Shown: positions 1 to 28,006 of the stretch, in pieces | How the letters are laid out: every line of letters begins with the position of its first letter | How positions within the stretch are numbered: the first letter of the stretch is position 1 | Source of the DNA: Acinetobacter sp. GSS19 | GTDB lineage: Bacteria > Pseudomonadota > Gammaproteobacteria > Pseudomonadales > Moraxellaceae | Length of the DNA stretch: 64,000 nucleotides | Direction: 5' to 3' | Assembly (NCBI RefSeq): GCF_028621895.1 | Contig: NZ_CP117520.1 | Span: 62,001-126,000, forward strand | Made by a program: the position numbers and the translations under genes | Notes under the pieces: model-generated | Told to the model about the DNA's origin: nothing | Databases searched by the model: none | Seen by the model: only the letters and a program-made list of their open reading frames with translations

Positions 1-1305
1 AATTCTATTGCACACGGGGATATCCAAACAGGAAACTTAATGGTTTCTAATACAGGATCTAGCCTTCAATTGATCGACTATGACGGTATGTATATTGATT
101 CGATAGCTAGTCTTGGTAGTTCAGAATTAGGGCATATAAACTTCCAACACCCTTATCGTGCTAAACAAAATCCTTTCAATAATAGATTAGATAGGTTTTC
201 TTTAATTCTATTATGGCTAGCATGTAAATCATTAGAAATAGATTCGAAAATTTGGGGTAAAACAAAATCAGAATTTGATGCTATCGTATTTCGCTCAACT
301 GACTTTGCTAATCCAAATACATCACAAACTTTTTCCTTATTAAGCTCTTATCCAGCCTTAAAAGATCATGTAAATAATTTTGCAGCTATATGTGGTATAA
401 CTGATTTAAATGATATACCTAATCTAAGCAACTTTATTCAAGGTATTGGAATACCTAGCACTAATAATATTCAAATTATTTCTAAGAATGTTAGTAGGGC
501 TGTAGTTTTAAATGAGTATATAAGTCCATATCCTGTATTATCAGCATTGGATTACAACTTATGTCTAAAACATATTGGTAATCAAGTAGAAGTTATAGGA
601 AAGATTGTCGAAGTCAAACAGGGTCTTACACGCAATAATAAGCCTTATATCTTTATCAACTTTGGTGATTGGAAAGGTAATATATTCAAAATTACTATTT
701 GGAGTGAGGGCTTAGATATTATTGCTAACAAACCTAATCATACTTGGATTGGGAAATGGGTTAGCGTAAAAGGTCTAATGGAAGCCCCATTCAAGAGTAA
801 GAAACATAAGTATTCCCATATTTCTATTACTTTAACTAAAAAAGGTCAATTATTCCAAATTGACGAGTTAGAAGCTAAAAAACGCCTTATAAGTAAGTCT
901 CTTCCTCAAAATAATAATAGTGGGTCAATTAAAATATCAAATAGAGATATTCTTACACAAATTGGAGTTGGATCATCCTCAGCTAATAATTCAAGCCCAA
1001 CAAGTGGTCAATCAATTACCTCTACTAATAGTGTAACGAAGTCTCAAAATCAGGCTATTTTAAGCAAAATTCATGCTACATCTAAGCCTATTAACTCGCA
1101 ACCTGTTCAAAGTCCTTCAAAAAGTAGTACTCCATCTCTTTTAAAATCATCCAATCACAATTCAACTTATTCCAAACCACCACAGACATCGAATACCCCA
1201 AAAACAATAACAACTAAACCTTCATCGGGTAGTAAAATAGAGCAGATAATTGGCGGTGTAATTTGGATAGTAATAGTTTTAGTTCTTTTAAAAGCATGTA
1301 GCTGA
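1..1305 (+). CDS. Kinase-like protein with OB-fold-like domain and C-terminal membrane anchor (5' end missing)
   Basis: The frame is open from base 1, so the N-terminus lies outside the window. The first residues read HGDIQTGN, the protein-kinase/phosphotransferase catalytic loop (HxDxxxxN), and 15 residues later LIDYDG, the metal-binding DxDG equivalent. After a helical region, roughly fragment residues 195-295 (VEVIGKIVEVKQG... IFINFGDWKG... WIGKWVSVKGLM) look like an OB-fold nucleic-acid-binding domain. A long Ser/Asn/Thr/Pro-rich linker follows, and the protein ends in about 20 hydrophobic residues (IGGVIWIVIVLVLLKACS), a tail-anchor-like segment. The gene is AT-rich and converges on the recombinase module. 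Kinase-like proteins of this kind occur in defence islands, but no function is assigned. The kinase fold is fairly secure, the OB call moderate and the anchor an inference. Confidence 0.6.
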   Translation, partial: NSIAHGDIQTGNLMVSNTGSSLQLIDYDGMYIDSIASLGSSELGHINFQHPYRAKQNPFNNRLDRFSLILLWLACKSLEIDSKIWGKTKSEFDAIVFRSTDFANPNTSQTFSLLSSYPALKDHVNNFAAICGITDLNDIPNLSNFIQGIGIPSTNNIQIISKNVSRAVVLNEYISPYPVLSALDYNLCLKHIGNQVEVIGKIVEVKQGLTRNNKPYIFINFGDWKGNIFKITIWSEGLDIIANKPNHTWIGKWVSVKGLMEAPFKSKKHKYSHISITLTKKGQLFQIDELEAKKRLISKSLPQNNNSGSIKISNRDILTQIGVGSSSANNSSPTSGQSITSTNSVTKSQNQAILSKIHATSKPINSQPVQSPSKSSTPSLLKSSNHNSTYSKPPQTSNTPKTITTKPSSGSKIEQIIGGVIWIVIVLVLLKACS

Positions 1306-1505
1306 TTTAAATGGCTTTTCATCCTCACGCAATTGCTCACCTTGATCAGCTCGTTCTAGTTGAAATCTTACTTCAAACTCGTTAATTGCCTCTAACATAA
1401 TGTCCCCTGGATTATCGATAGGTAGTAACAAGACACTACGACCAAAACGTTTAATAGCAACTTCGTTGCCATTAAAGCGAAATGCTTTGGGCAATCTAAC
1501 GGCGA
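1288..1505 (-). pseudogene. VapB-type (AbrB/SpoVT fold) antitoxin fragment
   Basis: On the minus strand the frame reads IAVRLPKAFRFNGNEVAIKR and then LLLPIDNPGDIMLEAINEFE, the typical swapped-hairpin VapB signature (R-L-P-K-x-F-R-F). The sequence upstream of AVRLPK, which should encode the NGRSQ start, is replaced after one codon by the stop codon of the neighbouring recombinase gene. The C-terminus also departs from the usual VapB ending (EDEKPFKSATCF), and no vapC follows. The gene is therefore cut on the 5' side and probably on both. It looks like target DNA left at the edge of the recombinase element. Family assignment is fairly sure; the reading as an insertion scar is inference. Confidence 0.55.
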
Positions 1506-1506
1506 T

Positions 1507-4500
1507 TTAATCAGTTTCAATAAGTTCCTGTTGGTGTAATACAGCCATAGGCTTATGTACGGTAGCAGGTGATATGTCATCTAACTCATTAAGCTGAACA
1601 GATAGTGGGCGACCAATACATGCTAGATGTAAGCAAAATTTAAATGCAGCAAGAGCATGACCATCTTTTTCTGAATAGAGTTGTAGACGAGGAAACTCCT
1701 CTAGAGTCGATGGATGTTTATCTGTTGATGCTTTTGCTAATTTGAAAAGTTGAGGTTGTTGTTTAGCATCTAACTTTGTTAGTAAATCTTGTCCAAGTAC
1801 GTGCCAAAATTTGGCAGGAAATAAAGCCTTAACCTGGGAGTAAAAATGTTCGAGTTGATCGATATCCTTCCAGCGATAATGGATACCTGTGTGTGATGCG
1901 GTCACTCGATTCAAAAATACATTCAGGACGCATGCAATTTGTGTTGGTTTTTTACGAGCTATTTTCTGTAAATGTTCAAAAAAATAAGTCACCGCATGAA
2001 GCTCTTCAGCGGTATCAAGCATCGCTGGCTTTAAATGGGTTGAGCTATCAATACTAAATAAACGTGGATTCCCTTTTTTTGATTTTATGTCTGCTAAATT
2101 TAGGGCATTTTCATACCAATAATTGACAAGCTCTTCTGGTAAGCACATACGTTGAGCTGCAATTTTAGGATCGTGGGTAGTCTCTAATACCTTGAGTGTT
2201 TTATAAAAGCGTTGAAGTGAAATTTTAGAGTCTTCTGTGCCAGCGAAGAAAGCAAAAAAGTCATGGGGTTGATTTGTTTGTACTGACAGTTCGTTAAGAA
2301 TGTCAGTAGCATTACTCTGGAGCCAGTTTGTTTGATCATTCAATAATATAGTTGCTAGAATTGCCTGGTTTTTTTCAAAATTAAAGTCTTTTTCATCTTT
2401 TGTTATTTTCAAATTTTTAAATGTTGCATTGTAGCCCATAATTTTTTTAGCCAGTTCATTTGGCATGTCTGGATGATGTTTCTGTAGCTTTTGACCAGCA
2501 ATCAGATAACTTAAGTGAATATAACTTTTGAAAGTTTCAACGGGTTCTATATGCCCTAAAAGATGTGCGATAACAAACCAATGGTTTTGTCCATGTCGAT
2601 TTTGAAGAAGTTCAGCTCGAATTTTTTCATATTGGTTTTCGTTATAGTCAGTCAGCTCTTGCACAAGTGGTGCATATTCACAGTTCAGTAAAAGCGATAA
2701 ATGATTCGCTGCAGTGTGACGAAAAGAGTGAAAGGAGTAATGATGCTCTTTAAAGACCTGATTCAATATCAGTTTTAGGGGCACAGTAACAGTGTGTCTA
2801 TTCAGTTTTTTATTTTCCTTTAAGTTGCTGAATAAATATAAACTTTTCTTATTCTCTAAACGTTTTTCAACAACAAAATCGCTAAAAAATAGGTACTCAT
2901 CATCTTTAAGCAAAGCGTATGCAGGCACAATCCGTTCCGCACTATCCGTTTTGAGAAGATGTTGATTCCCTTGTTTTTTTGAACCATAGGGTTGAACCCA
3001 AATAGAAAATTGATCTAAACCCTCGATATCTTTTACACGTAACCCGAGTATTTCGTTAATACGCATACCAGTACGGTAAGCCAAAATATAAATGATTTTG
3101 AATAATTTATAGTGATGGTCTGAGATGTATTGGTCATGTAAGAGCTGATTTAACTTCTTTAATATTACTTGGAAGGCTGTGTGACCAATGATGCGTGCAC
3201 GAGGTCGACTTTGCGATGCAATAAATTCAAGTTCGAAATCTTCTGCTTGAAAAACAATTTGTTGAAAGGTGTGAAAGCGTTTCAACATGCGGATTGTTTG
3301 GTCTTTAGATTTTTTAAACTCAGGTTGATCTGCTTCATCAGCAAGTCGTGTATTGCTAATGATTTGTTGATAGATTTTGTTCAGCAGATCATTCATGTCA
3401 TCGTCGGCATCGAAGTATTGTAAGGCATGAGTTAAAAACGGTTCTGCGATCCGGGTGTAATATGTATAGATTGAACTATCTGCGAGTTTTTGATTGTCTT
3501 GAAATGCCTTCGTGTACTGAGTTGTATCAAAATCAAAGGTGGCTGATAATTTTTTTATTTGCTCTGAACTTGGTCTATAGAGACTGATGAGCCACAAAAT
3601 AATACGTTTAGAAAACTCATTAAACTGCTCTTGGTGACGCAGGCAAAAATCAATAATGAGTTCAGCAATAGGTTGTTCCGTTGATGATGTGCGAATCAGT
3701 TTCAGCAAGTTTTTATGAATAAATATCACATTACCTACCACTTCAGAAGTATTTAGATCAGGTAAGGGCTTGGTTGCAGAAGAGATATTTCGTTCGATTT
3801 CATCACTTAATTGAGTTTTAAATTTTGGGAATGCAAAGTTTTCAAACTCATGTTCTGATAAACCACACGTGAGTGTGTTTTCTAACAAACATTGTGAAAG
3901 AGCAGGATCAACATCTGCATTCTGCAGTTGTAGCCAATTAAAATTGGCGTAGTCACGTAAAAACTTAAAAGTCTTGTTGGTGTATGGATGTTTTATTTTT
4001 TGAAAAATGATGTGCAGATATGCATTCACGTCTAGACTGATGTCACGAATTTGTCTTGTATTGAAGTGAATGAGCCACAGTCGTGTGAGTTGATCTGGAA
4101 TAAAATTACGCGATTTGCGTATCGTTTTTTCATCAACAAACAGATCGCCATAGCTTGGAGAAAGTGGCTCTAAAAAGATGATATTAAAATCGAAAATTTT
4201 TTGGATTTTTTCAGGGTTTTTTAAATGTTCGAGCAAAGCATTTAATGAAGCTGTTTGATTTAATCCACCGTAGAACATTGAGCAAAGCAGAATATTCCCA
4301 ATAATTTCATTATCAGAAAAAGCGGAACTATCTTGAGCAAGAATCCAGTAGTCCCACAGTTTTTCGAGGATGATGTCAATTTCATGACCCGCCTGGATCC
4401 AATCTAGGGTGAAAATTGGTTGATCGCGTTTCATCTCAAAGATGAGATAAGGTAGTGGGAGGTCTAGGTTATTGCTCTTCTTGAGGTCCTTGATATATGT

Positions 4501-4736
4501 TCGGAAGAATTCATGGGCATATTTTTTCCAAGCAAGATTCGGTGCTTTACGTTTAATAAACTCATAAATCGCAGGATAAGCTTGAATTAATTCGTCATTT
4601 GAGAATTTTTGCTCATCAAAGTATTGTCGGAGCGCTTGTTCTGCATCAGCTCGTAGGTTCTTTTCTAATTCATTACGTTGAAATTGACGTCTATCTTCAG
4701 CATAGCGTTTTTTTTTTTTTTATTGATTGATGACAT
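1507..4736 (-). CDS. Large tyrosine recombinase of a three-gene mobile module (start disrupted by an A14 tract)
   Basis: From the first in-frame ATG (4434) this is a 975-residue protein with a complete tyrosine-recombinase active site near its middle: Arg in AYRTGMRINEILGL (about residue 455), HSFRHTA (HxxR, about 571), LLGH (about 627) and nucleophile Tyr in SYIHLS (about 638). About 300 further residues follow. The same frame stays open and protein-like upstream of 4434 for some 95 codons (ending KKSNNLDLPLPYLIFE before the Met) with no ATG, GTG or TTG. A good ATG exists at 4736-4734, overlapping the stop of the upstream gene, but it is out of frame because of a run of 14 A. With 12 or 15 A the gene would encode about 1070 residues. 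It resembles the large integrases of trio elements (gamma-mobile-trio GmtZ, Tn554 TnpB); the exact family is not certain. Confidence 0.7.
4708..4721. repeat. Homopolymer of 14 A (minus strand) at the junction of two recombinase genes
   Basis: Fourteen consecutive T on the plus strand. It lies between the stop codon of the 761-residue recombinase (4720-4722) and the N-terminal coding region of the downstream one, just after a candidate overlapping ATG (4736-4734). Its length sets the frame of the downstream gene. Tracts of this size are prone to replication slippage, transcriptional slippage and sequencing error. Confidence 0.8.
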
Positions 4737-7005
4737 GAACTTCAATCCCGCTAATTTTAAATTGATCTTTCATTTGCTCTAAAACATTCGCAATTTTAGA
4801 AAACTGAGAGAGTGATAAACTGGAAAAAGGATGTGCTGCTTCTTGTTGCATGAGCTCATGTCCAAAGAGAGCTAAAATCTCAGGTTCGGTAATTTTATGA
4901 GTTAAAAAAGCACGTGCTGTGTGGCGATGCCAGTTTGCATGATCAAGACCTAATTCAGGATGAAAATCTTTGACTATAGAAGGGCTTAGTGGTATCCACT
5001 CTCTATTTTGGATAATGCCAAGTAAGGGCAATTTACTTGTTTTGATTTGTTGTAAGAGCTCAGCTAAGTGTGAGTGGCTCATCATGATTTGAATCGAAAA
5101 ATATTCTAAAAAATTAAGGAATTTTTTTATCTCTTCAACTAAAAATGGACAAAGCGGAATGAGGCGTCCGAATCCTTTTCGGCCGCCTACTTCTTTGTCT
5201 GAAACCATCAAAATTTGGCGTTTTAAATTAAAGTTTTTAAGAAATCCAGGGAATTCAGCAACGGGGCGTGCTGCTGTAAATAGCAATAAAATATGCCACA
5301 TCCAGATGTTGTAATGATTAAAAATTGAAATTAGGTCATCTTCAGCTTGTGAAAAAATATTAAATTTCAATACAGCAAAAATCTCTGTAATGACCTGTGG
5401 TTTTGGAGCTTTACGACTCCCAAAATGAGTTGTTGAATCAGGGAGTGAAAGTACACAGTTTTCATATGTGCTCGCGACATCTGCACAAACTGATTTTAGA
5501 ATATCAATATATTGTGCATGTAAACGAGGGATAATCTGATGACAATAAGAAATAGATGATGACTGATTGGCATCAATCCCTGTGATTAAATCTGCGAGTT
5601 GTTTATTCCCTGTTTTTGCAAGAACCGTATGATGCAGTAGCGAACTCAGCTTTATGACAGAGAGCTTTGGAATCAACAACTCTTGTCTTAATTTGCGTAA
5701 ATATTGCTGTATCTCATCGAAACTAACCGACGCCATCTCACGTAGATCCGTAATAAATCTATTGGGTATTGGAATGTCTAAATAGATGGTCTGGTTGAGC
5801 AGGCTATCTGAGTACTCAAAATCTCGGTTCTCAAATATATTAAATTTACTGCTTAAGAAGAATTGATCATTTTTATTGATCAATTTTTGGCGGTTATTTA
5901 AGTTTTTAGCTCGCTTGCTTTGTATATATAGCCACTCATTCACACTATTTCCGGTCAAAAATGCGAGCATCAGGATCAAAGCACTTTTATTTTGTTGTTC
6001 AGAATAGTCCGCATGAAGTTTTTTCAGTAGATGATTCACGCTAGATGGATTCGGGAAAAAACTACTCGACGTGAGTAAATGTTCTTTGCGTTGAATATGT
6101 TTTGCAACAAACGGTAGAACATAGTTTTGACTCGATTCTGAATGTGCTGCGAGTGGTGTGACGTGAGTTGGATTGACAACAATTTGCCGATTAATCGGCT
6201 CATCAATTAACATTTCTATATTCAGGGCTTTAGATTTAGTCCCTTTTTTTATTTCTATACTTTCTTCGATGAGTTGTTCTTCATCAAGAAATTGATGAAG
6301 AAGTTGGGTATCAATACTTGCACGTGCAATCTTTGCTTTGTTTTTTAAAACGTAGTTGAACGTAATGCGAATATCGTTAAGTAGATTTCGATCAAAATCA
6401 GGTAGGTCCTGTGTGTCTAGAGTTATCAGATGTTGAATAAATTGTTCTAAGCTCTGTGTTGGATCTTGAAGATAGATGCTCCAGAGACGTTGATATTCTT
6501 CTGTATTTTGATATTTTTTTTCAGTATCTAAATTTTTATTTGCTGTCCTAAAGCGCTGGAATAAGCGCTTTACGGTATTGAAGTGTTCTGTGTGTGCTTG
6601 TTTAAAAAGCTCTGGTTTAAGCTCAGGAAGAGCAATTAAATAAATGGCCGCTTTTAAAACTAAAATATTCCAATGTTGTGCATGAGTTTGTGACTCAGAT
6701 AATTGCACAATTGAATTGATATATGAAGTGATGGGTAGATTGCTGATCTTAACTTTTTTAGAAAAAGAGATTACTGAAGGTTTGGGCAGATTTGACTGAA
6801 ATTCTACATCGACGTTAAAGTAATCGAGATTGAGACCATCTAGAAAGTTGTCAGCCTGTTGCAACGACAATAGTTTAATTACAAAGTTGATGTGTTGTGC
6901 ACGTTCAAATTGCTCATCACCAAATAATTTTTCAAGCATTTTTTGCAGTGAAATAACTGGCAAATCAATATGCTCGTTTAGATCGTTCGACACTATGATC
7001 TCCAA
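4720..7005 (-). CDS. Tyrosine-recombinase-like protein lacking the expected catalytic tyrosine
   Basis: 761 residues, middle gene of the module; its ATG overlaps the end of the preceding small gene by 13 bases. The C-terminal quarter carries a recombinase pattern: FTAARPVAEF (Arg box, about residue 578), VGGRKGFGRLIPL (beta-turn Lys region), HRHTAR (HxxR, about 692) and FGHELM (about 715). Where the nucleophilic Tyr should follow, about eleven residues after GH, the sequence reads AAHPFSSLSLS, giving Phe instead of Tyr. It may be a structural or regulatory partner of the downstream enzyme, as some multi-recombinase transposons are thought to need several subunits. Loss of catalysis is an inference from the motif and needs an alignment. 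The first 550 residues show no domain I recognise. Confidence 0.65.
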   Translation of the reverse strand: MEIIVSNDLNEHIDLPVISLQKMLEKLFGDEQFERAQHINFVIKLLSLQQADNFLDGLNLDYFNVDVEFQSNLPKPSVISFSKKVKISNLPITSYINSIVQLSESQTHAQHWNILVLKAAIYLIALPELKPELFKQAHTEHFNTVKRLFQRFRTANKNLDTEKKYQNTEEYQRLWSIYLQDPTQSLEQFIQHLITLDTQDLPDFDRNLLNDIRITFNYVLKNKAKIARASIDTQLLHQFLDEEQLIEESIEIKKGTKSKALNIEMLIDEPINRQIVVNPTHVTPLAAHSESSQNYVLPFVAKHIQRKEHLLTSSSFFPNPSSVNHLLKKLHADYSEQQNKSALILMLAFLTGNSVNEWLYIQSKRAKNLNNRQKLINKNDQFFLSSKFNIFENRDFEYSDSLLNQTIYLDIPIPNRFITDLREMASVSFDEIQQYLRKLRQELLIPKLSVIKLSSLLHHTVLAKTGNKQLADLITGIDANQSSSISYCHQIIPRLHAQYIDILKSVCADVASTYENCVLSLPDSTTHFGSRKAPKPQVITEIFAVLKFNIFSQAEDDLISIFNHYNIWMWHILLLFTAARPVAEFPGFLKNFNLKRQILMVSDKEVGGRKGFGRLIPLCPFLVEEIKKFLNFLEYFSIQIMMSHSHLAELLQQIKTSKLPLLGIIQNREWIPLSPSIVKDFHPELGLDHANWHRHTARAFLTHKITEPEILALFGHELMQQEAAHPFSSLSLSQFSKIANVLEQMKDQFKISGIEVHVINQ

Positions 7006-7540
7006 ATTTTTTCTGCACTCACAGAGCTATTTGAGTGATCTAAGAGTTCTTTTACACATCTGCTGTGTAGTGATAATTCATTAAAAGTATTTGTGCGCTG
7101 TTGGTTGGTATTTTTAATTCGCTGATTGAGTTGATTTCGAGAACATGAAAGTAGTTGTGCAAGCAGTTCCAGACTCATTCGATGATGTGGTTTTAAAGAT
7201 GATTCTTTGTTAAGGGTTAATAGTGTTTGACGTGAAAGATGAGTGTTAATTAAGTGCAATGTTTTTCAGGATTCAAAGACTTAATATCAAATTTTGCAGC
7301 CTTGATGAATTGAATAAATTCACGACTGCATAACTCCATCAGAAATGCTAACTCATCATCTGAAAAAGATAGCTGATGGTGAATAATTAAAGTGACTTCC
7401 TTAATATCCTGTTTTAAATAGCTAATATATAAGTGAATATTATTAAAGATGGTGTAGCCATCAAATTCTGAGGTTTTCCACACATGGAGTTCTTTTATAC
7501 GACTAGAAATATCTAAATCTGCAGCGAGATTTTTAAACAT
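6993..7540 (-). CDS. Small third protein of the recombinase trio (apparent frameshift)
   Basis: Two overlapping open frames cover this span: 96 residues from ATG 7540 (MFKNLAADLDISSRIKEL... FIQFIKAAKFDIKSLNPEK) and 88 residues in another frame, which begins only at a TTG at 7259 and has a stop just upstream. Adding one A to the AAAAA run at 7262-7266 joins them into one protein of about 182 residues (NPEKTLHLINTHLSRQT...), and the total length is 3n-1, as that model requires. The second half (RMSLELLAQLLSCSRNQLNQRI) resembles a helix-turn-helix. It begins the trio operon and overlaps the next gene. Small accessory proteins head or tail other recombinase trios (GmtX, TnpC), but no family is assigned. 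Confidence 0.5.
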
Positions 7541-7882
7541 ATTTAAGTAGCATAGGTTGAAACCATAAGCACATGGATGAATGATGATTCTGCTTTTTTG
7601 AAATTTTTACAGTACTTATCTGTGTTTCTGGAAACTTTAAAAGTAGTTCAGATGTCAAATCCATGTGTGCTATTGAATAAAAATAATACAGCAATGTTCA
7701 CGTATATTTGGAGTTTTTGAATATGGCAGGAGGCATCATTTTTTTTCTTGTTTTTAAAGTTTTTTTATTATTGAAATTTTCAAATTTCCTCCTCGATTGG
7801 ATACTCGCTATTAGTTAGCTATATTTGTGAATTGGCAAAAAATATCATGTTTCTATTTTGATGTTCACATAGCTGATCAGAA
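7541..7882. other. Intergenic stretch upstream of the trio, with a possible small hydrophobic ORF
   Basis: AT-rich, presumably holding the trio promoter on the minus strand, though no convincing -35/-10 pair was singled out. On the plus strand 7723-7818 encodes a 31-residue, strongly hydrophobic peptide (MAGGIIFFLVFKVFLLLKF...) preceded by TTGGAG at a sensible distance. It could be a real small membrane peptide, but T-rich DNA gives such peptides by chance. Confidence 0.3.
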
Positions 7883-8130
7883 TGAATAGGGTCGGGAGAG
7901 TACAGCGGTATGACAATAATAATGCTCAAATTTTTTTGATAGTACATACCGAGTTGACATGCAGAGTTTGTACGAACCTTTTTAAGTATTTACCTACACA
8001 ATTAAAGATTTTGGACTTGGGCTGTGGTCGGATGGTGACACTTTGGATTTCAAAAAAGAGGAGTAGATGATTCGGTTGAGCTTGTAGTTAAGGTGCGAGA
8101 GCCCACAGGGATTTAATGTTAAGCAGTTAA
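7883..8130 (+). pseudogene. Decayed copy of a methyltransferase 5' region
   Basis: After frame corrections this stretch reads YDNNNAQIFF, DSTYRVDMQSLYEPFL, KILDLGCG and DDSVELVVKVRE. These align in order with the start of the intact methyltransferase at 9206 (YYNQHAQAFF, ENTYQVEMESLYAPFL, SILDLGCG, DYSEELVAKARQ). It has several frame breaks and a stop after KVREPTGI. Nothing beyond the first 75 or so residues survives. It is a diverged relic rather than a recent duplicate. Confidence 0.6.
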
Positions 8131-8310
8131 GTTTTTCTGCGTCGCAGATTCGGCCTTGATATTAAAAAAGAGCGAGTCGATGAGTTTATGTTTGATGAAA
8201 CATTTGACCCTTCGACCCTAGATGGTTTGGCCTGAAGTGAGCCTATCATCGTGATAGGTTTTAAGAATTCAAAAACATACTGATTTAAATTCAAGTCAGC
8301 AGCATCAGTT
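8131..8310. other. Short unassigned stretch, possibly a gene tail
   Basis: A plus-strand frame at 8137-8235 reads LRRRFGLDIKKERVDEF then MFDETFDPSTLDGLA and a stop. Its composition looks like the C-terminal end of a real protein, but no start is present. It may be another relic in this decaying interval. No family recognised. Confidence 0.25.
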
Positions 8311-8624
8311 TTAATGGCGAGTAAGGAACTCAGGACAAATATTTTTCTTTGCTTCGAGATCACTTACTTCGGAAAAGGCTTGAATACCGCCTGCAGCTTT
8401 AATTCCATCTAAAGCGACAGATAGAGCTTCCTGATCTGACGGGAAAGTTTCATCCCATACAGTAGAAGTACCACTTTGGCTTACCACTTCCAGTGTCCAA
8501 TCACTGTCAGGCAGTCGATAAATGAGAATTTCGACCTGCTGATTATGTTCCTGTAAAACTTGAGATAAGGGAGAGTCGATTAAATCATTTCATCATAATC
8601 GGGAGCATTGTGATTTTCAGGCAT
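8311..8624 (-). CDS. Conserved-looking small acidic protein, one frameshift
   Basis: The minus-strand frame from ATG 8624 reads MPENHNAPDYDEMI, then breaks at a TTT run (8582-8584). It continues in another frame as IDSPLSQVLQEHNQQVEILI... DWTLEVVSQSGTSTVWDETF... GIKAAGGIQAFSEVSDLE and stops at 8311. Adding one T restores a single 104-residue protein, and the length is 3n-1 as expected. The coherent protein character on both sides of the break argues for a real gene with a recent or artefactual lesion. I do not recognise the family. Confidence 0.4.
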
Positions 8625-8724
8625 CAGCGGCAACCTTTATTGTATTTAACATCCGTCAATAGTAATGAATGAATCAAATTTTGCCTAGCGGAATGAATGT
8701 TATGGGTACAAAGCGCGGCTAATT

Positions 8725-9054
8725 CTAAAAAATAATAGCCCCTACAATAAAACAAAATAATCCAAAAATTATCCATAGCCAGACATTTGATTTAGATGTT
8801 TCCATACTTCGGCTATTCAATGGTGATGGTTGCTGAGAAGAGTTCTGTAAGGTATTTGGCTTATTTGTATAGGGATGATGCTTGGAATAAGAAAGTCCTG
8901 TTCCTGGGATACCAATACTCGTTCGAGTTCCCTTTTTGCCAATATTCAAAGAAGCACCAGCTTTGCCAATACTGGCACTACTTATGCCTTTATGGGTTAG
9001 ATTAATTTTTAAGCCTGGTAAGATTTTAATGCTCTTGCGAAATCTGAAGCCCAT
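8725..9054 (-). CDS. DUF4236 domain protein with C-terminal membrane segment
   Basis: 109 residues. Residues 1-57 (MGFRFRKSIKILPGLKIN... GKAGASLNIGKKGTRTSIGIPGTGLSY) match the DUF4236 pattern: an F-R-F-R-K start, then Gly-rich beta repeats ending in PGTGLSY. A polar linker rich in Ser, Asn and Gln leads to a hydrophobic C-terminal helix (VWLWIIFGLFCFIVGAIIF), suggesting membrane anchoring. The molecular role of DUF4236 is unknown. It stands alone between decayed genes and the methyltransferase/nuclease pair. Confidence 0.8.
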   Translation of the reverse strand: MGFRFRKSIKILPGLKINLTHKGISSASIGKAGASLNIGKKGTRTSIGIPGTGLSYSKHHPYTNKPNTLQNSSQQPSPLNSRSMETSKSNVWLWIIFGLFCFIVGAIIF

Positions 9055-9205
9055 TTATTTTCCTTTGTAGAAACCAGCTCAGTTTTTTATTTCAATAAAG
9101 TAGAGACAATAAAATGAGATTTTGGCTCAATCATAGAACTGTTCATTTGACTTATCTATTGAAATATCAGTATGTTCTTTCACATAAGATATTAGCTTTA
9201 AGACA

Positions 9206-10405
9206 ATGAATCAAACATCAAATTATTACAATCAGCATGCCCAAGCATTTTTTGAAAATACCTATCAGGTTGAGATGGAAAGTCTTTATGCACCATTTCT
9301 GAGGTATTTATCGGAACAAGCGTCAATTCTGGATTTGGGCTGTGGCTCGGGTCGGGATACATTGGCTTTTAAAAATTTTGGTTATCAGGTAGAGGCAATC
9401 GACTATTCAGAGGAGCTGGTTGCAAAAGCACGTCAGCTTACTGAGTTACCAGTGCAGTTGGGCAGTTTTTATGAATTGGCTGTACAGGAGAAATATGATG
9501 GCATTTGGGCATGTGCCTCTTTGCTGCACTGCGAGCGAGATAAGTTGTCAGATGTCTTGCACAGGATCTTAATAGCATTAAAGCCAAATGGTGTCTGCTA
9601 TATGTCCTTTAAATATGGCAGTCAAGATCGTGAAAAAGATGGGCGTAGCTTTACCGACTTAAATGAACAGCAGGCACATGATTTGCTCAAGCAGCTCGAT
9701 CAGGCTTTACTATTACAGCAATGGATTAGTGTAGATAAACGTCCAGACCGAGCAGAAGAATGGCTCAACGTGATATGGAAAAAGAAATCAAAAGCTTTTG
9801 ATTATTACCCTCAGCGGTTATACGGTCGTTCCGAGTTAATGGAACAGTCCTCTTTGATTCCCACAGAGCATGGAATTTATTTCTGGTGGTTTAAAAAAAT
9901 TCCCCAAGGAATCCCAACAGAACACTGTGTAACTTATAAAGAATATACGCTGTTGTATGTGGGCATCTCTCCAGATAAAAAGACCAAACCTAATAGCAAA
10001 TCAACGTTGAGAACACGACTTAAAACACACTTTGCGGGTAATGCTGAAGGTTCAACTTTAAGACGAACTTTAGGGATACTTCTGGCTGAGATGAGTGGGT
10101 ATCCCCTTAGAAGGGTTGGTTCAGGTAATCGAATGACTTTCACACATGCAGGTGAACAATGGCTAGATGCGTGGCTCGAGGATAATGCCTATGTATCTTG
10201 GGAAATTTGCGAAGAACCGTGGAATATTGAGGAAAAAGTTTTTGAACAAACTGTACTACCACTTAATTTAAAAGGGAATCAGCACCCGTTCAAAGAAACT
10301 CTTTCAGTTATGCGTAAACATGCCATTCAGAACGCGAGAATTTTAGACATAGCAACAGAAGCAGGATTACAAAGACAGGTAAAATTTGAAAATGGGGCAG
10401 AATGA
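9206..10405 (+). CDS. SAM-dependent methyltransferase fused to a GIY-YIG nuclease-like domain
   Basis: 399 residues. Residues 1-195 form a class I methyltransferase: motif I ILDLGCGSGRD (about 42-52), an acidic motif II (EAIDYSEEL) and a motif IV-like WACASLLHC. Residues about 220-385 form a GIY-YIG-type domain: HGIYFWWF and LLYVGIS strands, then LRTRLKTHF with the catalytic-type Arg, GNAEGSTLRRTLG, and Glu-containing EEKVFEQTVLPLNLKGNQHPF. The fusion couples a modifying domain with a nuclease domain. The substrate is unknown: a DNA-modification or defence role is plausible, and so is small-molecule methylation with an independent nuclease. The next gene, an HNH nuclease, overlaps its 3' end by 20 bases, indicating translational coupling. 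Confidence 0.7.
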   Translation: MNQTSNYYNQHAQAFFENTYQVEMESLYAPFLRYLSEQASILDLGCGSGRDTLAFKNFGYQVEAIDYSEELVAKARQLTELPVQLGSFYELAVQEKYDGIWACASLLHCERDKLSDVLHRILIALKPNGVCYMSFKYGSQDREKDGRSFTDLNEQQAHDLLKQLDQALLLQQWISVDKRPDRAEEWLNVIWKKKSKAFDYYPQRLYGRSELMEQSSLIPTEHGIYFWWFKKIPQGIPTEHCVTYKEYTLLYVGISPDKKTKPNSKSTLRTRLKTHFAGNAEGSTLRRTLGILLAEMSGYPLRRVGSGNRMTFTHAGEQWLDAWLEDNAYVSWEICEEPWNIEEKVFEQTVLPLNLKGNQHPFKETLSVMRKHAIQNARILDIATEAGLQRQVKFENGAE

Positions 10406-11451
10406 TCGCGTCATAGAGAATAATCAACCCACACCTCAAGAACAGTTGAAATTCTTAAAGCATATCCAGCAAATTTTGCAGTCAGGTACGTTCACTTCAA
10501 CCTATAAGTTTGCCTTGCTGATGAGCATTACTCGACTTGCGATTGAACAGGGACAAGATACGGGTGCAGCTCTGCGTCTAGATTATTTGGACATTGCTGA
10601 GAAGTTTATTGATCTTTATTGGAAACAATCACTTCCGTTTCAGTTCAGCCAATATGAGCCTTTTATCATTCAACAAAGTACCGGTCGGCAAGCAAAGGTC
10701 ATCAGTGAAATCCAGAAAGCACAGCAGCAATTTAAAACAATCGCTGCTGCAAGAAGAGATTCAGTTTTTGGTTAAAACTCAGGAAATCTGTAGCGAGTAC
10801 AGTGAAGCAAATGCCAGTGGTGTATTTGCAGAACTTGAATGGTCAAACCGTAGAGTTTCTCTATAGTCTTGAGGAGTCCAAGCAGTCACTCAAGCTGTTC
10901 CCAAAGGTAATGTATTGTTTAAGACAGTTTAGTGAAATTATTGAAGAGCTGTGCCAAAAGCGCTGGATTGATTTTGTTCGGCTGAACAAGCAGAACCTTA
11001 TAGTACTGGATGGATTACCTGACCTAGATGAATTCATGTTTGCCCCGAGTCGTAATCAATTGGGACAGGTTGCGGACTTTCTAATTGATTTACAGCAATG
11101 CCAGTGTTTTTACTGTGGCAAAAGCTTAAAAATTCAAAATATGCCGTGGATCATTTTATTCCATGGTCTCTATATCCTGCTGATACCGGACATAACTTCG
11201 TTCTGGTGGATGAAAAATGTAATTCACAGAAAAGTAATTATTTGGCATCAGAACATTTCCTGCAGCAGTGGCTGGAGCGCAATCATCTGCATGATCAAGC
11301 TATTACACGAGAAATTTCCCAACTTGGTTTCTTAACGGATCTGCAGCGTTCACATCGAGTTGCTGATTGGGCGTATAAGCAGGCGATAGAGAATGAATAT
11401 TTAGTTTGGTTGGGTGGTAAAGATAAAAAGATATTAACCCAAGGATATTAA
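10386..11451 (+). pseudogene. HNH endonuclease, broken by three single-base changes
   Basis: The pieces lie in three frames but in perfect order: NQPTPQEQLKFLKHIQQIL... then QSLLQEEIQFLVKTQE, ASTVKQMPVVYLQNLNGQTV... with QCFYCGKSLKIQ, and finally AVDHFIPWSLYPADTGHN, CNSQKSNYLASEH. CxxC, DHFIPWS and the N..K tail form a clear HNH active site. Each break sits in a short A run (10734-10737 one A too many, 10784-10786 one too many, 11136-11139 one too few). Correcting all three gives one protein of about 354 residues. It probably partners the GIY-YIG fusion upstream. Whether it is truly dead or mis-sequenced cannot be told here. Confidence 0.6.
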
Positions 11452-11600
11452 GACATTAATTTTTTAAAATATTTTTAACTATATTAATTGCATACAAATT
11501 ATTTAAATAGATTGCGTCAATATATGACGTTAAATTTCGAAAATTTATTTAAATAATTATTGGAAAAGGATATTTTAAGGACAACTCTTATTCATAACTG
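11452..11600 (+). promoter_or_regulatory. AT-rich region upstream of the cas operon
   Basis: A very AT-rich interval before cas1. It contains an inverted repeat CGTCA-n5-TGACG (11515-11529) and ends in AAGGA-type ribosome-binding sequence about 20 bases upstream of the cas1 start. No definite promoter hexamers were assigned. It should hold the cas promoter. Confidence 0.35.
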
Positions 11601-12578
11601 ATGACAAGAATGGAACAAATCAATCCATCTGATTTAAAAGCTATTTTACATTCGAAACGTGCCAATTTGTACTACCTTGAACATTGTCGTGTGATGCAGA
11701 AAGATGGTCGAGTTTTGTATTTGACTGAAGCAAAAAATGAAAACCAATACTGGAATATTCCGATTGCCAATACTACGGTCATTTTACTGGGGACAGGGAC
11801 ATCGATTACCCAAGCAGCTATGCGTATGCTCGCAAGTGCAGGTGTTCTGGTTGGTTTTACAGGTGGAGGTAGCACGCCTTTATTTATGGGCTGTGAAATC
11901 GAATGGATGACCCCGCAAAGTGAATATCGACCGACAGAGTATATGCAAGGCTGGATGCAGTTTTGGTTTGATGAAGCCAAACGCTTAGATGTTGCCAAAC
12001 AGTTTCAATTGGCTCGAGTTGAATATATTCAGAAGATTTGGGCAAAAGATCGAGATTTAAAAGAATATACCTTCCATGTGGATGATTTAGATGTTCAACA
12101 GGCATTAATGGCTTATACAGAAAAAATTCCAAAACAAAGTAAAGTCGGAGACTTACTACTTGCAGAAGCTGCAACCACAAAACAACTTTATAAAATTGCA
12201 GCGACTCGTATAGGTTTAAAAGATTTTAACCGTAATCCTGAACAAGGTGATTTAGCCAATGATTTTTTAAATCATGGCAATTATTTGGCTTATGGTTTAG
12301 CAGCGACAACACTTTGGGTGCTCGGAATTCCACATGGATTTGCCGTAATGCATGGTAAGACACGGCGAGGGGCATTGGTATTTGATGTTGCCGATTTAAT
12401 TAAAGATGCCATTGTTTTACCTTATGCCTTTATCTGTGCCAAAGAAAAGATGACTGAACAAGAATTTAGGCAACAGATTTTGCAGAAATTTACTGAGCAT
12501 AAATGTCTGGACTTTATGTTTGATCAAGTCAAAGCACAAGCTTGTTACCATCATGATGATGTAGAGAGCACGTTATGA
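11601..12578 (+). CDS. cas1: CRISPR-associated endonuclease Cas1, type I-F
   Basis: 325 residues, the usual size for I-F Cas1, the integrase that inserts new spacers. It contains the expected fold landmarks: TTVILLGTGTSITQAAMRMLASAGVLVGFTGG near the N-terminus, and in the alpha-helical domain LLLAEAATTKQLYKI (with the metal-binding Glu), GNYLAYGLAATTLW and IPHGFAVMHGKTRRGALVFDVADLIKD (His and Asp ligands). First gene of the cas operon; its stop overlaps the next start in an ATGA arrangement. A second ATG three codons in (11610) is an alternative start. Confidence 0.95.
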   Translation: MTRMEQINPSDLKAILHSKRANLYYLEHCRVMQKDGRVLYLTEAKNENQYWNIPIANTTVILLGTGTSITQAAMRMLASAGVLVGFTGGGSTPLFMGCEIEWMTPQSEYRPTEYMQGWMQFWFDEAKRLDVAKQFQLARVEYIQKIWAKDRDLKEYTFHVDDLDVQQALMAYTEKIPKQSKVGDLLLAEAATTKQLYKIAATRIGLKDFNRNPEQGDLANDFLNHGNYLAYGLAATTLWVLGIPHGFAVMHGKTRRGALVFDVADLIKDAIVLPYAFICAKEKMTEQEFRQQILQKFTEHKCLDFMFDQVKAQACYHHDDVESTL

Positions 12579-15523
12579 TTGTGACGTTTATTAGCCAATG
12601 TGAAAAGAAAGCCATTCCACGAACGCGTCGGGTATTAGATGCCTTTGCAGACCGAATTGGTGATAACACCTGGCAGACAGTGATTACTGAGGAAGGTCTA
12701 ATTGCGGTTAAAAAATTGCTGCGTAAAACCGTGACCAAAAGTACAGCGGTAAGTTGTCACTGGATTCGAGGCAGACGTCGAAGTGAGTTACTGTGGGTCG
12801 TGGGTAATCGGAATAAGTTTAATGCTAAGGGTGTGGTGCCGGTGAATAGTACACAAAAAGATGTAGTTATGGATGTAATCACAATGAAAGCAAAACAAGA
12901 TGAATTTTATGCGAATACACATTTACAGCCGTTGGCTGAACACTCTTTTGCGATTGGTTATGTCGCACAGAAATTATTTAAAACAGTAGTGGATAACGAT
13001 GAATATGACAACTTATCTAAAGTTGCATTTTTAGCGGGTTGTTTGCATGATTTAGGCAAATTAGATCCTCTATTTCAAGAGTGGGTTAAAAAAGGAAAAC
13101 AGAAAGATTCTGAAGATGATGGTCAGCATATCGATGTTAAATTTACCTTTGATAAACACCCTCGTCATAATGAGGTGTCATTATTGCTATTTAATTTTTT
13201 TGAACAGCAATGTAAAGGATTGAATAATCGTCAAAAAGAAAGTTTACAGCATATTTTGTATTGGCATCATGCGAAGCCATATCGTCAAAATGATGATTTT
13301 ACAGGGGTGTATAAAGCCTACGAATATTTAATCAAAAACATTCGAGCAGATCAGTTTGAAATCTTGATTCAACGGACATCTGACTTGGTCAAGAGAATTA
13401 ACAACCTATCAAAAAATTATCATGCCAATGAAAGTATCGAAAAGCATATCGATTGGAATGTGGCTCAAGCACAAGAGCTAAAAGATAATTTTGAATATCA
13501 ATTCAAAAGTAAACATTTTCCAGAATTTAAACATTATGCTAATACAGATTCTATAGACGTATTACGTGATAAGGTGCGTATTAACTCAGAACATAATTTA
13601 TTACGTGCCTGTGTGATTAGTGCAGACTGTTTGATTTCAAAACTGTCTGCGCAAGATTTAATGGAATACATTGCTGAGCAACGCTTAGATGAGTTATTGG
13701 ATTCACAAGAAACGCTTTCTAATCTATCTGAACATTTAAACAATGTTTCGACAAAATTTCCGAACAGTGAGCGTACTAAAAAACAAAATGAAATTGCACA
13801 ACAACTTACTGATTTAAGGGATATTGCTGTACTTGCAGGTCCAGCAGGTTGTGGTAAAACCAAAATTGCATTGGAGTGGGCAAAGCTTAAAGATGCAAAA
13901 AAAATATTTTGGATTTGCCCTCGTGTACAAGTCTGTCAAGGGATTTTCCAAGAACTGACAGAAAGTTATTTACCAGATGCAAAAGTAGAAATTTTTACAG
14001 GTGAATTTAAATTTACCAATGCTTGGGACAAAGTAACACCTGAGAAAGAATATCTATCAGGTGATGTGGTGGTCACAACGATTGATCAAATTGTAGGATC
14101 GATTGTCACGCATAGCAAAGTTGATAGTTTAATTCCATTTATGGATGCACACGTGGTATTTGATGAATACCATGAATATATAGGCATGGAGATTTTCAAT
14201 TTATTGTTTGCTGAATTGATTGCCAATAAAAGTATGCGTAAGAAATATGAAAAAAACACCTTATTAGTTTCGGCCACACCACATTATTCGTATTTAAAAC
14301 AAGTCTTGGGATTGCATCAAGATGATGTCATTGCAATGCCATCATTTAATGATAGTGAATATAAAATTGAATTTATTGATTATGATGAATCAATAATAGC
14401 AGGAAATCCATTTTATCAAGTATATGATGGAAAAACCTTTGTCATTTCCAACACTGCTTTAACAGCACAATTGGGTTTTATTTATCAAAAAAACCAAGAA
14501 AAAAGCGTGCTCTTTCATTCAAAGTTTAAGCGCAGTGATAAAAAATATTGGTTTAATGAAGTTTATGAGGCATTTAAAAAAGAGGGTACACACAAGTTTG
14601 ATGTATTGCGTAGTGGTCCAATTGTACAAGCGTCTTTGAATATTACAGCCAAACACATGCTGACAGAAATGACCTCACCCGAAAATATGCTTCAGCGTTT
14701 AGGTCGTTTAGATCGTTTTGGGGAAAGTGAAAGTATCAATATTCTAAAAGTTGCGATTACTGAAAATGTAAAAAATGGCAGTTGTAAAGGTTCGTTGGCA
14801 TTTTTCTTAAATCAATTGAATTGCTTACAGACCACTAAGGCGTGGTACGACTTTTTACAAGATCAACTTGTAGACCAAAGCTTTAAGTTATCGAAGCTCT
14901 ATCAATTATATAAAGCGTTTCATACTCAACAAGATCAAGAAAATTCTGCTGTTTTTCAAGATATGCAAAAAGCGTTAAAGAAAAGTATTGATCGAATCAA
15001 TAATAAAGTCACAGAACCAACAAAAATATCTAAACCTAAAACGGCAGAGCAGAAATCTAAGATCAGTAAAAACTCATTACGTGGAGATAGCCGTTTTGTA
15101 CAGTTAGCCAAATTAAATTTAAATGATTATGCAAAACCAGTGTTTGAAAATGAATATGCCTATCAACCACCGTTAGATGATACAACAGAATATGACAATC
15201 TGACTGAATCATTAAATATTATCCAAGAGCTTGGTTTAATCAATTTTATTGCCCAAAAACATGGCAATATTGATCCGTCACATCCAGTGAAAGGTATTCC
15301 AGAGAAAAAGCAAAAATCACGATGTATGGTCTTAGAAAACTATGCGAGAGATGCAGATTTTCCTTTGTATCTAAGTTACATCGAAGATGACTTAAATAAA
15401 GTTGGGGGCACAGGCATTAGACATCCTGAAGCAATTTATTATGCGGTGTGTGATCAGCAACCGATTGGTTCAATTTCGTTAGACAAACTTAATATTTTAA
15501 CAACAATGCCAGAGGGTAAATAA
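12575..15523 (+). CDS. cas3: Cas2-Cas3 fusion helicase-nuclease, type I-F
   Basis: 982 residues, slightly short for I-F Cas2-3. The N-terminal 90 residues form the Cas2 domain ([24 protein letters not shown]). The HD nuclease follows ([42 protein letters not shown], about residues 115-210). The superfamily-2 helicase has Walker [14 protein letters not shown] (about 420), the DExH box as FDEYHEY, motif III SATPH, and motif [14 protein letters not shown] (about 705). Cas3 degrades the target after Cascade binding; fusion to Cas2 ties it to Cas1 in adaptation. All catalytic motifs appear intact. Confidence 0.95.
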
Positions 15524-15524
15524 C

Positions 15525-16514
15525 ATGGCTAAAGTAACAGGCGTAAAAAGCGTAGATTTTAAAATTACAGCATATGGTTATGGGGTAGTGAATTGGAATG
15601 GTCCAACATCATTAACAGGTAATGATGGTAAGACTGTTGATAACCATACATTACCAAAACTTCGTGGTTTTAGTAATTTATCAGGTAAGGTAAAAGAAGA
15701 AACAGGTTATAAGTATCGTAAAGAAGCATCTGATATTGATTTTAAAGAAACACCTTTATATATCAGCCAAAACTGTATTCGACACCACCTATTTCGTGAT
15801 CAGTCTTTTGATTTACATTACGCAAAAGACAAGAATTTAATCGATGTTTTAGCATCTATTACAGGATTAATCCGTGGTTATGTTGTGCCATCTAGTCAAT
15901 GTAAACGTACAAGTCCTCTTTTGATTACTGATTTCATTGATCAGCTCGGTAATGGCAACTTTGAACAACTTTCTAATGCAAGTTCGAGTGAAGAAATTAC
16001 GCAAGATGATGGTTCAAAAACATATAAACGCGGTGAAAACTCAATTTTCTCTAAAACGACATTTGGCGATACTGAATATATCGCTTATGGCTCAATTAGT
16101 ATTGAACAATTACAATTTATTTCACTTGATAAGAAATTTGATCGTGCATCAATGATTATTAAAGAAGGTGAAGGCGAAAAGATTGCTGAACGAGTACAGG
16201 CATTTATCAAAAGTCTAGATCCTTCGAAAGAACCAAAAGCAACTTTCCATAAAAACTATGTACGTAAGGGAACAATTTTCAATGAAGGTGAAGTTGGTAT
16301 TTTACTCGACAACACTGCTATTGATATTTTAGTAAAAGAAACGCTTTTAATGCTTGAAGAACTCGTGATTAAACAAGCAAAAGGTTATATGTGTGTAGAC
16401 ACAGTAGAGGTGGATTATAACGACAGTCATAAAATGATGCGTATTAAACGCAACCCAGATCAAGCGAATTCTGAGCCACAACAAGATTATGCAGTTTATT
16501 TTGAAGCGCAATAA
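15525..16514 (+). CDS. cas7fv: Cas7fv backbone subunit, type I-F2 Cascade
   Basis: 329 residues, starting one base after the cas3 stop. Position and size fit Cas7fv (Csf2-like), the crRNA backbone protein of the I-Fv complex known from Shewanella putrefaciens. Recognisable elements are the N-terminal beta strand [18 protein letters not shown], a [10 protein letters not shown] segment (DNA/RNA contact loop in this family) and a C-terminal [19 protein letters not shown]. The canonical csy1 (cas8f), csy2 and csy3 genes are absent, which is what defines I-F2. Family call rests on operon context plus these segments. Confidence 0.85.
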
Positions 16515-16525
16515 TGAGGTGATTT

Positions 16526-17539
16526 ATGCAAATCATTATTGAATATGAATCTTCTTGGCGAAATTCATTTTTAGATGGCTCTAATAATGAACCTTTACCA
16601 AAAGGTGGACGTAATTTTATTGCTTCAATGACTACATTAAAGCAAGAAGGGAATTATAAAAAGCGCAATATTTCAAAAGATACTGTTATGGGCGTACTGA
16701 ATCGTTTGATTGGAGATCAACGCAAACTCTATCAAGCACGACAAGATGACAATTACTATTTTTCTGAGGTTGAAAAAGTACTTCAGGAGAATGACATTGT
16801 CGATCAAGCTTTAAATTGTAATGAGATGGTTTATATCCGTAACGTTTCAGGCAGTACAGATCAAAACTCATTTACAGGTGAAATTAAAGCGAATGATCCG
16901 TCTTTTAGATCAAGCTTTTCAGCCGAACTTTGGGGTGTTTTGTGGCTTAATTTGTCTGAGATTTACAAATTTATTTTGGATGAATCATATCCTGTAGCGT
17001 ACTCCGAAACCTTAGATCCAATTACGGTATGTAGTCGTATTGAGATTTTAAGCTCAGAAAAACCAATGGAACTGACGGAAGATATTCAAGCTGTATTTAG
17101 CTGTTTATTGGATCATTTCCCAGATACAAGTTATTTGACTGCTAAAAAACAGTTACCTCTAATCAGTATTTACACTTCTGCTTTATATATCCAAATTGCA
17201 AGATTATCTCAAAAATATGATCTTTCAAATGTTTTAACAAAAAGTGGCGGACTGAGCGGCATTTCTAAGCGTGGATTTACCAAAAAAGATTTTATGGATC
17301 GTTATACAACAGGAAGTAAAAAGCTAATTTGGGGAAATCCATATTTATTAAAAGAAAAGAAAAAAGGCGAAGGTGAAGTCGTATCTGTTTTAACCAAAGC
17401 AAGTGGAAAGCTTACGATCAATCTGAATATTTCTAAAGAACAAGCAAGAGATTTAGAAGAGAAGATTGAAAATGCGGGAGTTTCTTCTTTTTACTTAGGT
17501 AAAAAAGGCTTGGCTTATGTCACTGATATTAGACCTTAA
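16526..17539 (+). CDS. cas5fv: Cas5fv subunit, type I-F2 Cascade
   Basis: 337 residues, 11 bases after cas7fv. It begins MQIIIEYESSWRNSFLDGS, and the third-to-fourth position in a five-gene I-F operon is occupied by Cas5fv in I-F2 systems. In the characterised I-Fv complex this protein caps the 5' handle of the crRNA and also takes over the PAM-recognition role of the missing large subunit. The long insert between residues 60 and 250 could be that extra domain. Identification is by context more than by motif. Confidence 0.8.
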   Translation: MQIIIEYESSWRNSFLDGSNNEPLPKGGRNFIASMTTLKQEGNYKKRNISKDTVMGVLNRLIGDQRKLYQARQDDNYYFSEVEKVLQENDIVDQALNCNEMVYIRNVSGSTDQNSFTGEIKANDPSFRSSFSAELWGVLWLNLSEIYKFILDESYPVAYSETLDPITVCSRIEILSSEKPMELTEDIQAVFSCLLDHFPDTSYLTAKKQLPLISIYTSALYIQIARLSQKYDLSNVLTKSGGLSGISKRGFTKKDFMDRYTTGSKKLIWGNPYLLKEKKKGEGEVVSVLTKASGKLTINLNISKEQARDLEEKIENAGVSSFYLGKKGLAYVTDIRP

Positions 17540-17548
17540 GGATAGGAT

Positions 17549-18151
17549 ATGAACTATTACATTGAAGTGACATTAATGGAAATTGAGAAGTTTTCCCCTT
17601 ATGAATTATGGTCACAACTTTACCCTCAATTGCATCTTGCTTTGGTTGAAGTAAAAAATGCGGAGGATAAAGTAAATATTGGATTTTCATTTCCTCAATA
17701 TCGTTTCCATCAAGATAAAGGAGTGGGATTTCTGGGTACAAAATTACGTTTATTTGCTGAGTCTGAATCTGATTTAAAAAAATTTGATATCCGAAAATGG
17801 TTAGAATTCTTAGAAGACTATGTACATATCACTTCTATCCGTGAAGTGCCTAGCGATATTAAAGGCTATGCAGTTTATAAACGTAAACAAGTGAAAACCA
17901 ATGCACAGCGTTTGGCACGTCACCGTGTAAAACGTGGGGATATTGGCTTTGATGAAGCACTAGCTCGATATAGTCATGTTGTTACTACAACGAACTTGCC
18001 TTATATCGAAATGCAAAGTTTAAGTACTTCAGATGAACAAAGTAAAAAGCGTTTTAAATTGTTTATTGAAAAATTACCTGCTGAAAAATCTGAAACTCAG
18101 GTTTTTAGTACATATGGTTTGAGTTCGGTGTCATCTGTACCCGAATTTTAA
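17549..18151 (+). CDS. cas6f: Cas6f (Csy4) crRNA-processing endoribonuclease
   Basis: 200 residues. It aligns by eye with Csy4: MNYYIEVTLMEIEKFSPYELW at the N-terminus, catalytic His in LYPQLHLAL at residue 29 (same number as in the Pseudomonas enzyme), QSLSTS carrying the active-site Ser, and a STYGLSS end with the Tyr. An Arg-rich helix (AQRLARHRVKRGD) fits the repeat hairpin. It cleaves pre-crRNA 3' of the repeat stem and stays bound. Last cas gene; the array leader begins at its stop. Confidence 0.93.
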   Translation: MNYYIEVTLMEIEKFSPYELWSQLYPQLHLALVEVKNAEDKVNIGFSFPQYRFHQDKGVGFLGTKLRLFAESESDLKKFDIRKWLEFLEDYVHITSIREVPSDIKGYAVYKRKQVKTNAQRLARHRVKRGDIGFDEALARYSHVVTTTNLPYIEMQSLSTSDEQSKKRFKLFIEKLPAEKSETQVFSTYGLSSVSSVPEF

Positions 18152-18282
18152 CCCAATATTTTTTGATTCTTTAACAACTCAATAAAATCAATAAGTTATA
18201 ATAGTCGGTTAATACTTGGGTCTTTTGTGGGATTTTAGGCATAACTTACTGTTATAGCTTTATTTTTTTCGTTAAAATTGTT
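18152..18282 (+). promoter_or_regulatory. CRISPR leader with IHF-like site
   Basis: 131 bases, AT-rich, between the cas6f stop and the first repeat. AATCAATAAGTTA at 18186-18198 fits the IHF consensus WATCAANNNNTTR; IHF bending of the leader is known to guide Cas1-Cas2 integration in I-E and I-F systems. TATAAT at 18197-18202 could be the -10 of the array promoter. The degenerate repeat at the far end confirms that this side is leader-proximal. Confidence 0.6.
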
Positions 18283-24005: not shown

Positions 24006-24039
24006 GGAATTAAATATTTGATGCTTAATTGGTTTATAA

Positions 24040-24065
24040 AAAGGCGGTTCAAATGAACCACCTTT
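24040..24065 (-). terminator. Hairpin terminator ending the leftward element operon
   Basis: AAAGGCGGTTC-AAAT-GAACCACCTTT with one mismatch, followed on the minus strand by CCTTTTTATAAA. It lies just beyond the stop of the DnaC-like gene and also faces the end of the CRISPR array. Confidence 0.6.
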
Positions 24066-24070
24066 GATAT

Positions 24071-24823
24071 TTAATAAATATTATTAAAGCGGTTATCCTC
24101 CCAATAACACGGTACTACACTCAAATTGTTCTCATGTAACCGTGACCATAATCGGACACCTAAATCCCGCTGCATATTCTGTAATGTGAAATTGGAAATC
24201 AGCAGTGTGGATTTCATGTTGTCATAACGGCTATATAAGACCTTATGCACCATCTCTAGACGTTTTTCATGTCGGTCATGCAGGCCATATTCATCTATCA
24301 CCAATAAATCAAAACTGGAGAAATGGTCGATGACTTCCTTTTCAGAGCGTGAAGCATCTGACCAAGTGTCCATCATTTTTTGAGCAATTTCTGCACTGGT
24401 ATAGTAGCGTGCAGATTTCGTACTGTTATATAGAATGTTGCGAATGATTGATGTACCTAGATGGGTTTTTCCTGTACCTGGTGTGCCGATGAGCAGCAGG
24501 TTCGGATGATGGTCAGAAATAATCTGTTGTGCAAAGGTCTGACATTGTTTGATAGCATTCTCTTGTGCAGAACATGCGACCACATAATTCTTAAAACCAC
24601 GATCTAGGTAGCGTTTATTGAGCCCTGAATTTTTGATTCTCTGCTGCAGTAAGCGCTGTTGTAGTTCATCTTCATAAGCTGCATGTGAGCGGTGGACAGT
24701 TTCTTTAGCACACAATTTACAAAGTCTGTGACCAGCAATTTCCATCAGGGGTATGTGATGGGTAGGGCATAGCATTTCAGTTGCTTCTGCGTGAATCTGG
24801 AGCGTTTTAAGCATGGTATTCAT
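24071..24823 (-). CDS. DnaC-like helicase-loader ATPase
   Basis: 250 residues. The N-terminal part has a zinc-finger-like CPTHH...CKLC set (about residues 19-39). The AAA+ domain has Walker A LIGTPGTGKTHLGTS (about 111-125), Walker B FDLLVIDEYG and a sensor region TLLISNF. Such proteins load the replicative helicase for phages and integrative elements. It is last in a leftward operon after the DUF1376-like gene, 10 bases apart, a standard phage replication pair. Alternative: an IstB-like ATPase, but no transposase is nearby. Confidence 0.8.
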   Translation of the reverse strand: MNTMLKTLQIHAEATEMLCPTHHIPLMEIAGHRLCKLCAKETVHRSHAAYEDELQQRLLQQRIKNSGLNKRYLDRGFKNYVVACSAQENAIKQCQTFAQQIISDHHPNLLLIGTPGTGKTHLGTSIIRNILYNSTKSARYYTSAEIAQKMMDTWSDASRSEKEVIDHFSSFDLLVIDEYGLHDRHEKRLEMVHKVLYSRYDNMKSTLLISNFTLQNMQRDLGVRLWSRLHENNLSVVPCYWEDNRFNNIY

Positions 24824-24833
24824 GGTCGTTCTC

Positions 24834-25424: not shown

Positions 25425-25488
25425 GGGTTTACCTTTTATGGGTATAGAGGGGCTAAGGTCATCGATTAGATGACCTTGTATGTTTGTC

Positions 25489-26913: not shown

Positions 26914-26925
26914 AAAATTATCTCC

Positions 26926-27147: not shown

Positions 27148-27251
27148 TTCCTTTTAAAAAGTACCACAATGGTGTTATTAAATGACTCAATGCAATAATA
27201 TATGCATAAGTAACACCATGCAAGTACTTTATTACACAATGGTGATAATTA
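27148..27251. promoter_or_regulatory. Divergent control region with repeated operator-like motif
   Basis: Lies between the leftward excisionase gene and the rightward XRE regulator. CACAATGGTG occurs at 27164-27173 and again at 27234-27243, and the core ATGGTGTTA occurs inverted at 27211-27219 (AACACCAT). Three copies in 80 bases beside a repressor gene suggest the regulator's own operators. Confidence 0.5.
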
Positions 27252-27883: not shown

Positions 27884-27887
27884 AATT

Positions 27888-27963
<76 letters not shown>

Positions 27964-28006
27964 AGATTGAGCAGTTTTACTATAAAAACTTACACTTAAA
28001 AGATTT

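Follow-up and report, generated by a model that had tools for sequence, protein, structure and literature searches.

We analyzed 64,000 nucleotides of the Acinetobacter sp. GSS19 genome (positions 62,001 to 126,000 of contig NZ_CP117520.1; the whole of this stretch is hereafter the window), which carry on the minus strand a three-gene module whose last gene encodes a large tyrosine recombinase. Our subject is a run of 14 A (A14) near the 5' end of this gene, and whether it is a switch or an artifact. The recombinase has a Phage_integrase domain (PF00589) that scores 48.4 bits against a curated Pfam cut-off of 27.1. The original prediction, made from the letters of the window, was that A14 separates the recombinase frame from an ATG at 4736, its only good start codon, which overlaps the stop of the upstream gene. 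As a description of the assembled sequence this is accurate, the 14 A occupying exactly 4721-4708 of the minus strand and the upstream stop codon (TAA) 4722-4720. Read from the ATG, the sequence runs ATG TCA TCA ATC AAT, enters the A run and, counted by eye, reaches a stop once 23 codons have been read. Relative to this ATG the large frame lies at -1, so 12 or 15 A would restore the register, as had been predicted. The 95 or so codons said to lack a usable start are also borne out, the earliest ATG, GTG or TTG in the large frame being the ATG at 4434, 95 codons in. The run does not owe its presence to chance, because the contig's first 126 kb hold no other homopolymer of at least 10 bases, and the next longest there are two runs of 9. 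Phase variation, programmed transcriptional slippage and sequencing error had all been offered as readings of it.

The same locus is present a second time in the assembly, with a different tract. Searching the genome with 601 bases around the tract gave a second match of 605 bases at contig positions 2549702-2550306. Alignment of the two readings places four more bases in the tract of the second, which is an 18-base stretch of A9-CC-A7, and both the alignment and the listing of open reading frames (ORFs) have the ATG there in frame with the large recombinase, reading straight into it. A14 is not reproduced where this region is assembled again; nor is the tract of exactly 12 or 15 A found, the other reading having 18 bases with an interrupting CC. 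The recombinase of the second reading is 100% identical to that of the window as printed, and the single differing residue in the first 200 lies within the tract.

This second copy appears to be a product of the assembly. The genome consists of one contig of 2,586,360 bases, and contig positions 1-102870 match 2483423-2586360 (102,938 bases) on the same strand, that is, from the first base through the last. An initial 30 kb taken around the second copy matched the window side along its whole length, so that similarity is not confined to the module, and further stretches allowed the match to be traced out to both contig ends. Because a same-orientation repeat begins at the first base and ends at the last, we infer that the contig is a circular chromosome with an untrimmed start/end overlap. 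With its ends overlapping by 103 kb, the tract locus would have been assembled twice. The Trycycler paper (PMC8442456) gives a start/end overlap of 80 kb as an example of such an assembly error. We had also considered whether the module copies might be two distinct elements, each with a different gene broken (the large one in one copy, the middle one in the other), and rejected this because the overlap reaches both contig ends.

Comparing the two readings over the overlap gives 870 differences (390 substitutions and 480 insertions or deletions, hereafter indels). The readings disagree most where one of them nears a contig end: by contig position, differences per kb number 42.8 (1-5000), 22.0 (the next 5 kb) and 4.8 (10-15 kb), fall to 1.52 in the interior (15001-90000), and beyond 90 kb are 24.4, 15.6 and then 72.5 (the last for 100001-102870). 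The 75-kb interior holds 114 differences, 99 indels and 15 substitutions, and its indels are mostly of one base (79/99) and mostly in runs of at least 5 (74 of the 99). Interior indels per number of runs were 7/2916 for runs of 3, 7/956 for 4, 26/381 for 5, 31/128 for 6, 12/47 for 7, 5/6 for 8 and 0/1 for 9. The rate thus climbs with run length, from 0.2 to 0.7, 6.8, 24 and 26% for lengths 3 to 7, values that are approximate because indels were assigned by run length in the longer reading and runs were counted in the window-side reading. Likewise, across window positions 1-28000, which lie away from the contig ends in both readings, 28 of the 33 differences are indels in runs of at least 5 of the longer reading. 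Homopolymer-linked deletions are described as a known error of long-read bacterial assemblies in the Kastor paper (PMC12007338) and in PMC8442456. Given error-like differences throughout the interior, no special process is needed at the tract.

Related loci agree with the second reading at the tract. Of 175 genus genomes searched, 77 had a match, the genome itself included, and from these 29 related loci (L025-L053) were taken as the best matches. In 27 of these the recombinase is in frame from the homologous ATG, and the longest A run is 4 to 8; the remaining two do not have the 5' part: the match of L035 begins only at residue 147, and L052 matches nothing in the first 200 residues. No A run longer than 8 and no out-of-frame start was seen among the 27 relatives that keep the 5' end, although these are not all independent (L036-L039 are identical in score and in 5' sequence). 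All eight named Acinetobacter records that came from one scan have, by eye, an 18-base stretch with the ATG in frame; seven of them duplicate sequences among the 29 loci. Related elements free of an A run, named beforehand as telling against a role for the tract, were therefore essentially what we found, with the qualification that runs of 4 to 8 remain.

The relatives also allowed individual differences between the readings to be assigned. We examined eight, pooling the loci of both searches, so that at least seven sequences stand in the pool twice. Relatives reach across six indels within the module, and at each of them all spanning loci align to the longer reading with fewer gaps. The longer reading is the second one at the tract (18/18 spanning loci, against the window) and also at three further sites between 7262 and 7604 (8/8 spanning loci each); at two deletions in the other reading (5097 and 5352), 18/18 and 21/21 spanning loci side with the window. 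Four indels thus count against the window and two against the other reading. An indel at 1119, outside the module, is spanned by no relative, and a substitution at 5626 is tied at 20/20. Both readings err in the module and all six errors are losses, a picture that accords with sequencing error rather than with biology.

We therefore conclude with high confidence that A14 arose as a consensus error in an assembly of the long-read type and is not a frameshift switch: the stretch was assembled twice, and the other version and the relatives read in frame from the expected ATG. Of the three readings first offered, it is sequencing error that is upheld, because one stretch of DNA, assembled twice, forms both contig ends and its other version is in frame. 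On this account, a circular chromosome would have been left as a contig with ends overlapping by 103 kb; the window version of the locus would have collapsed an 18-base A-rich stretch to 14 A, whereas in the other version the ATG overlapping the upstream stop codon stays in register with the large recombinase. Judged from sequence, the recombinase in the living organism most likely starts at that ATG by ordinary translation, with no need of slippage. This start is suggested by the overlap of the ATG with the upstream stop and by the in-frame start in relatives, and translation is probably coupled to that of the upstream gene. The account takes the longer reading to be the true one and presumes the sequencing technology. 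Several points weigh against it. The tract difference is 4 bases and includes CC, so that it is no plain one-base homopolymer error; only 2/99 interior indels are of 4 bases and only 5/99 are mixed-base. Furthermore, the tract lengths are those of assembled sequence, and at a single site like this one a genuine minority variant in the culture could look just the same.

Such a variant would be a real polymorphism, in which part of the culture has a 4-base slippage deletion (A14, off) and the rest the 18-base tract (on), phase-variable or freshly mutated, the contig ends having caught both. The assembly does hold two tract versions, the 4-base size is unusual among interior indels, and an A-rich tract with an interrupting CC can lose bases by replication slippage. 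However, the readings differ by about 1.5 per kb across the interior with an error-like spectrum, and none of the 27 relatives keeping the 5' end has an A run longer than 8 or an out-of-frame start, so we regard a polymorphism as very unlikely. That both tract versions are real in the culture and that the recombinase 5' end of this one species slips between in-frame and out-of-frame states is more doubtful still. Phase variation as originally proposed finds no counterpart in relatives, where A runs of only 4 to 8 occur in frame in 27/27.

Least probable of all, and to a like degree, are two explanations that take the assembled sequence at face value. One is programmed slippage on a real A14, whereby RNA polymerase slippage or a -1 ribosomal frameshift would yield a little recombinase from the ATG. 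The arithmetic fits, the large frame being the -1 frame of the ATG, and A runs of such length are slippery. However, A14 is absent from the second reading, and the run is not conserved in the relatives that keep the 5' end, which are already in frame with A runs of 4 to 8 (27/27); in them slippage would reduce, not create, expression. The proposal of programmed transcriptional slippage falls on the same facts. The other is that the chromosome truly carries a tandem duplication of 103 kb in which one of the two recombinase genes has mutated. The sequence is indeed present twice in the contig, but the repeat begins at the contig's first base and ends at its last, differences crowd towards both contig ends, and interior indels outnumber substitutions by 99 to 15; neither the end-to-end extent nor the end crowding nor the indel excess would be expected from a true duplication alone.

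Table 1. Features of the recombinase locus, in window coordinates.
Feature	Position	Strand	Basis
A14 tract	4708..4721	-	Window as given (T14 on + strand); second reading of this position is A9-CC-A7, 18 bases
ATG, most likely start codon of large recombinase	4734..4736	-	Position and conservation in relatives (proteins begin MSS, once MLS)
Large tyrosine recombinase frame, open without stop (1070 codons, then the stop)	1507..4719	-	PF00589, E 1.2e-12; second reading
Middle gene of module, one ORF of 761 amino acids (aa) in window	4720..7005	-	ORFs, relatives
First module gene in transcription order	6993..7540	-	Window: 88-aa ORF (6993-7259) and 96-aa ORF (7250-7540)
Window part within the 103-kb start/end overlap, thus in two readings	1..40870	.	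End-to-end match and difference counts

The remaining genes of the module are also affected by which reading is used. Both small ORFs of the first gene belong to one 234-aa ORF once the second reading is taken, which 8/8 spanning relatives favour here, and the middle gene, intact in the window, is broken there by two single-base homopolymer deletions that are absent from spanning relatives. The three genes that we count are therefore drawn from both readings: ORFs of 234 aa and about 1077 aa from the second, and the 761-aa ORF from the window. In Pfam, NCBIfam and PHROGs, the two small ORFs and the middle protein gave only weak scores (best E 0.014, below the family cut-off). Six plasmid records match the module region. 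Among the related loci, the match to the window's large recombinase ends at residue 1044 of 1070 in L028-L032 and L036-L048, and the C-terminal end of the protein seems to differ between lineages, L033-L035 excepted. Internal stops occur in the related recombinase genes of L034, L035, L046 and L050, which may be decayed copies or sequence errors.

Elsewhere in the window, four overlapping ORFs (129, 90, 177 and 117 aa) at 10386-11451 on the plus strand join into one ORF of 355 aa in the second reading. By eye, the genes at 11601-16514 and at about 18280-23950 resemble cas1, cas3 and further genes of a CRISPR-Cas system (clustered regularly interspaced short palindromic repeats and associated proteins). 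The CRISPR-Cas-like genes are followed by an array with repeats about 60 bases apart, visible as off-diagonal matches in the comparison of the two copies.

Our findings remove a false lead. They also indicate that reading frames broken by one base in this assembly, at least in the 41 kb of the window within the overlap, should not be given a biological meaning without a check against the second reading. Frameshifts reported from window positions 1-40870 can and need to be checked in this way; the rest of the window exists in one reading only.

The recombinase bears comparison with IntB of the strand-biased circularizing elements. The published description (PMC9345347) gives these elements four core genes, in the order intA-CDS2-intB-CDS4, and ends with 19-bp imperfect inverted repeats. 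Compared by description, IntB and the large recombinase are alike in being long tyrosine recombinases with a long N-terminal region and module neighbours; the elements differ in gene number, with four core genes there and three counted here. When the literature was searched for the gamma-mobile-trio, GmtY and tyrosine recombinases, none of the papers listed carried the term GmtY. As for the tract, the known system that it most calls to mind is the long-read assembly error as portrayed in PMC8442456 and PMC12007338. The likeness lies in the start/end overlap and the homopolymer-linked indels, whereas the tract deviates in its 4-base difference, which swallows the interrupting CC.
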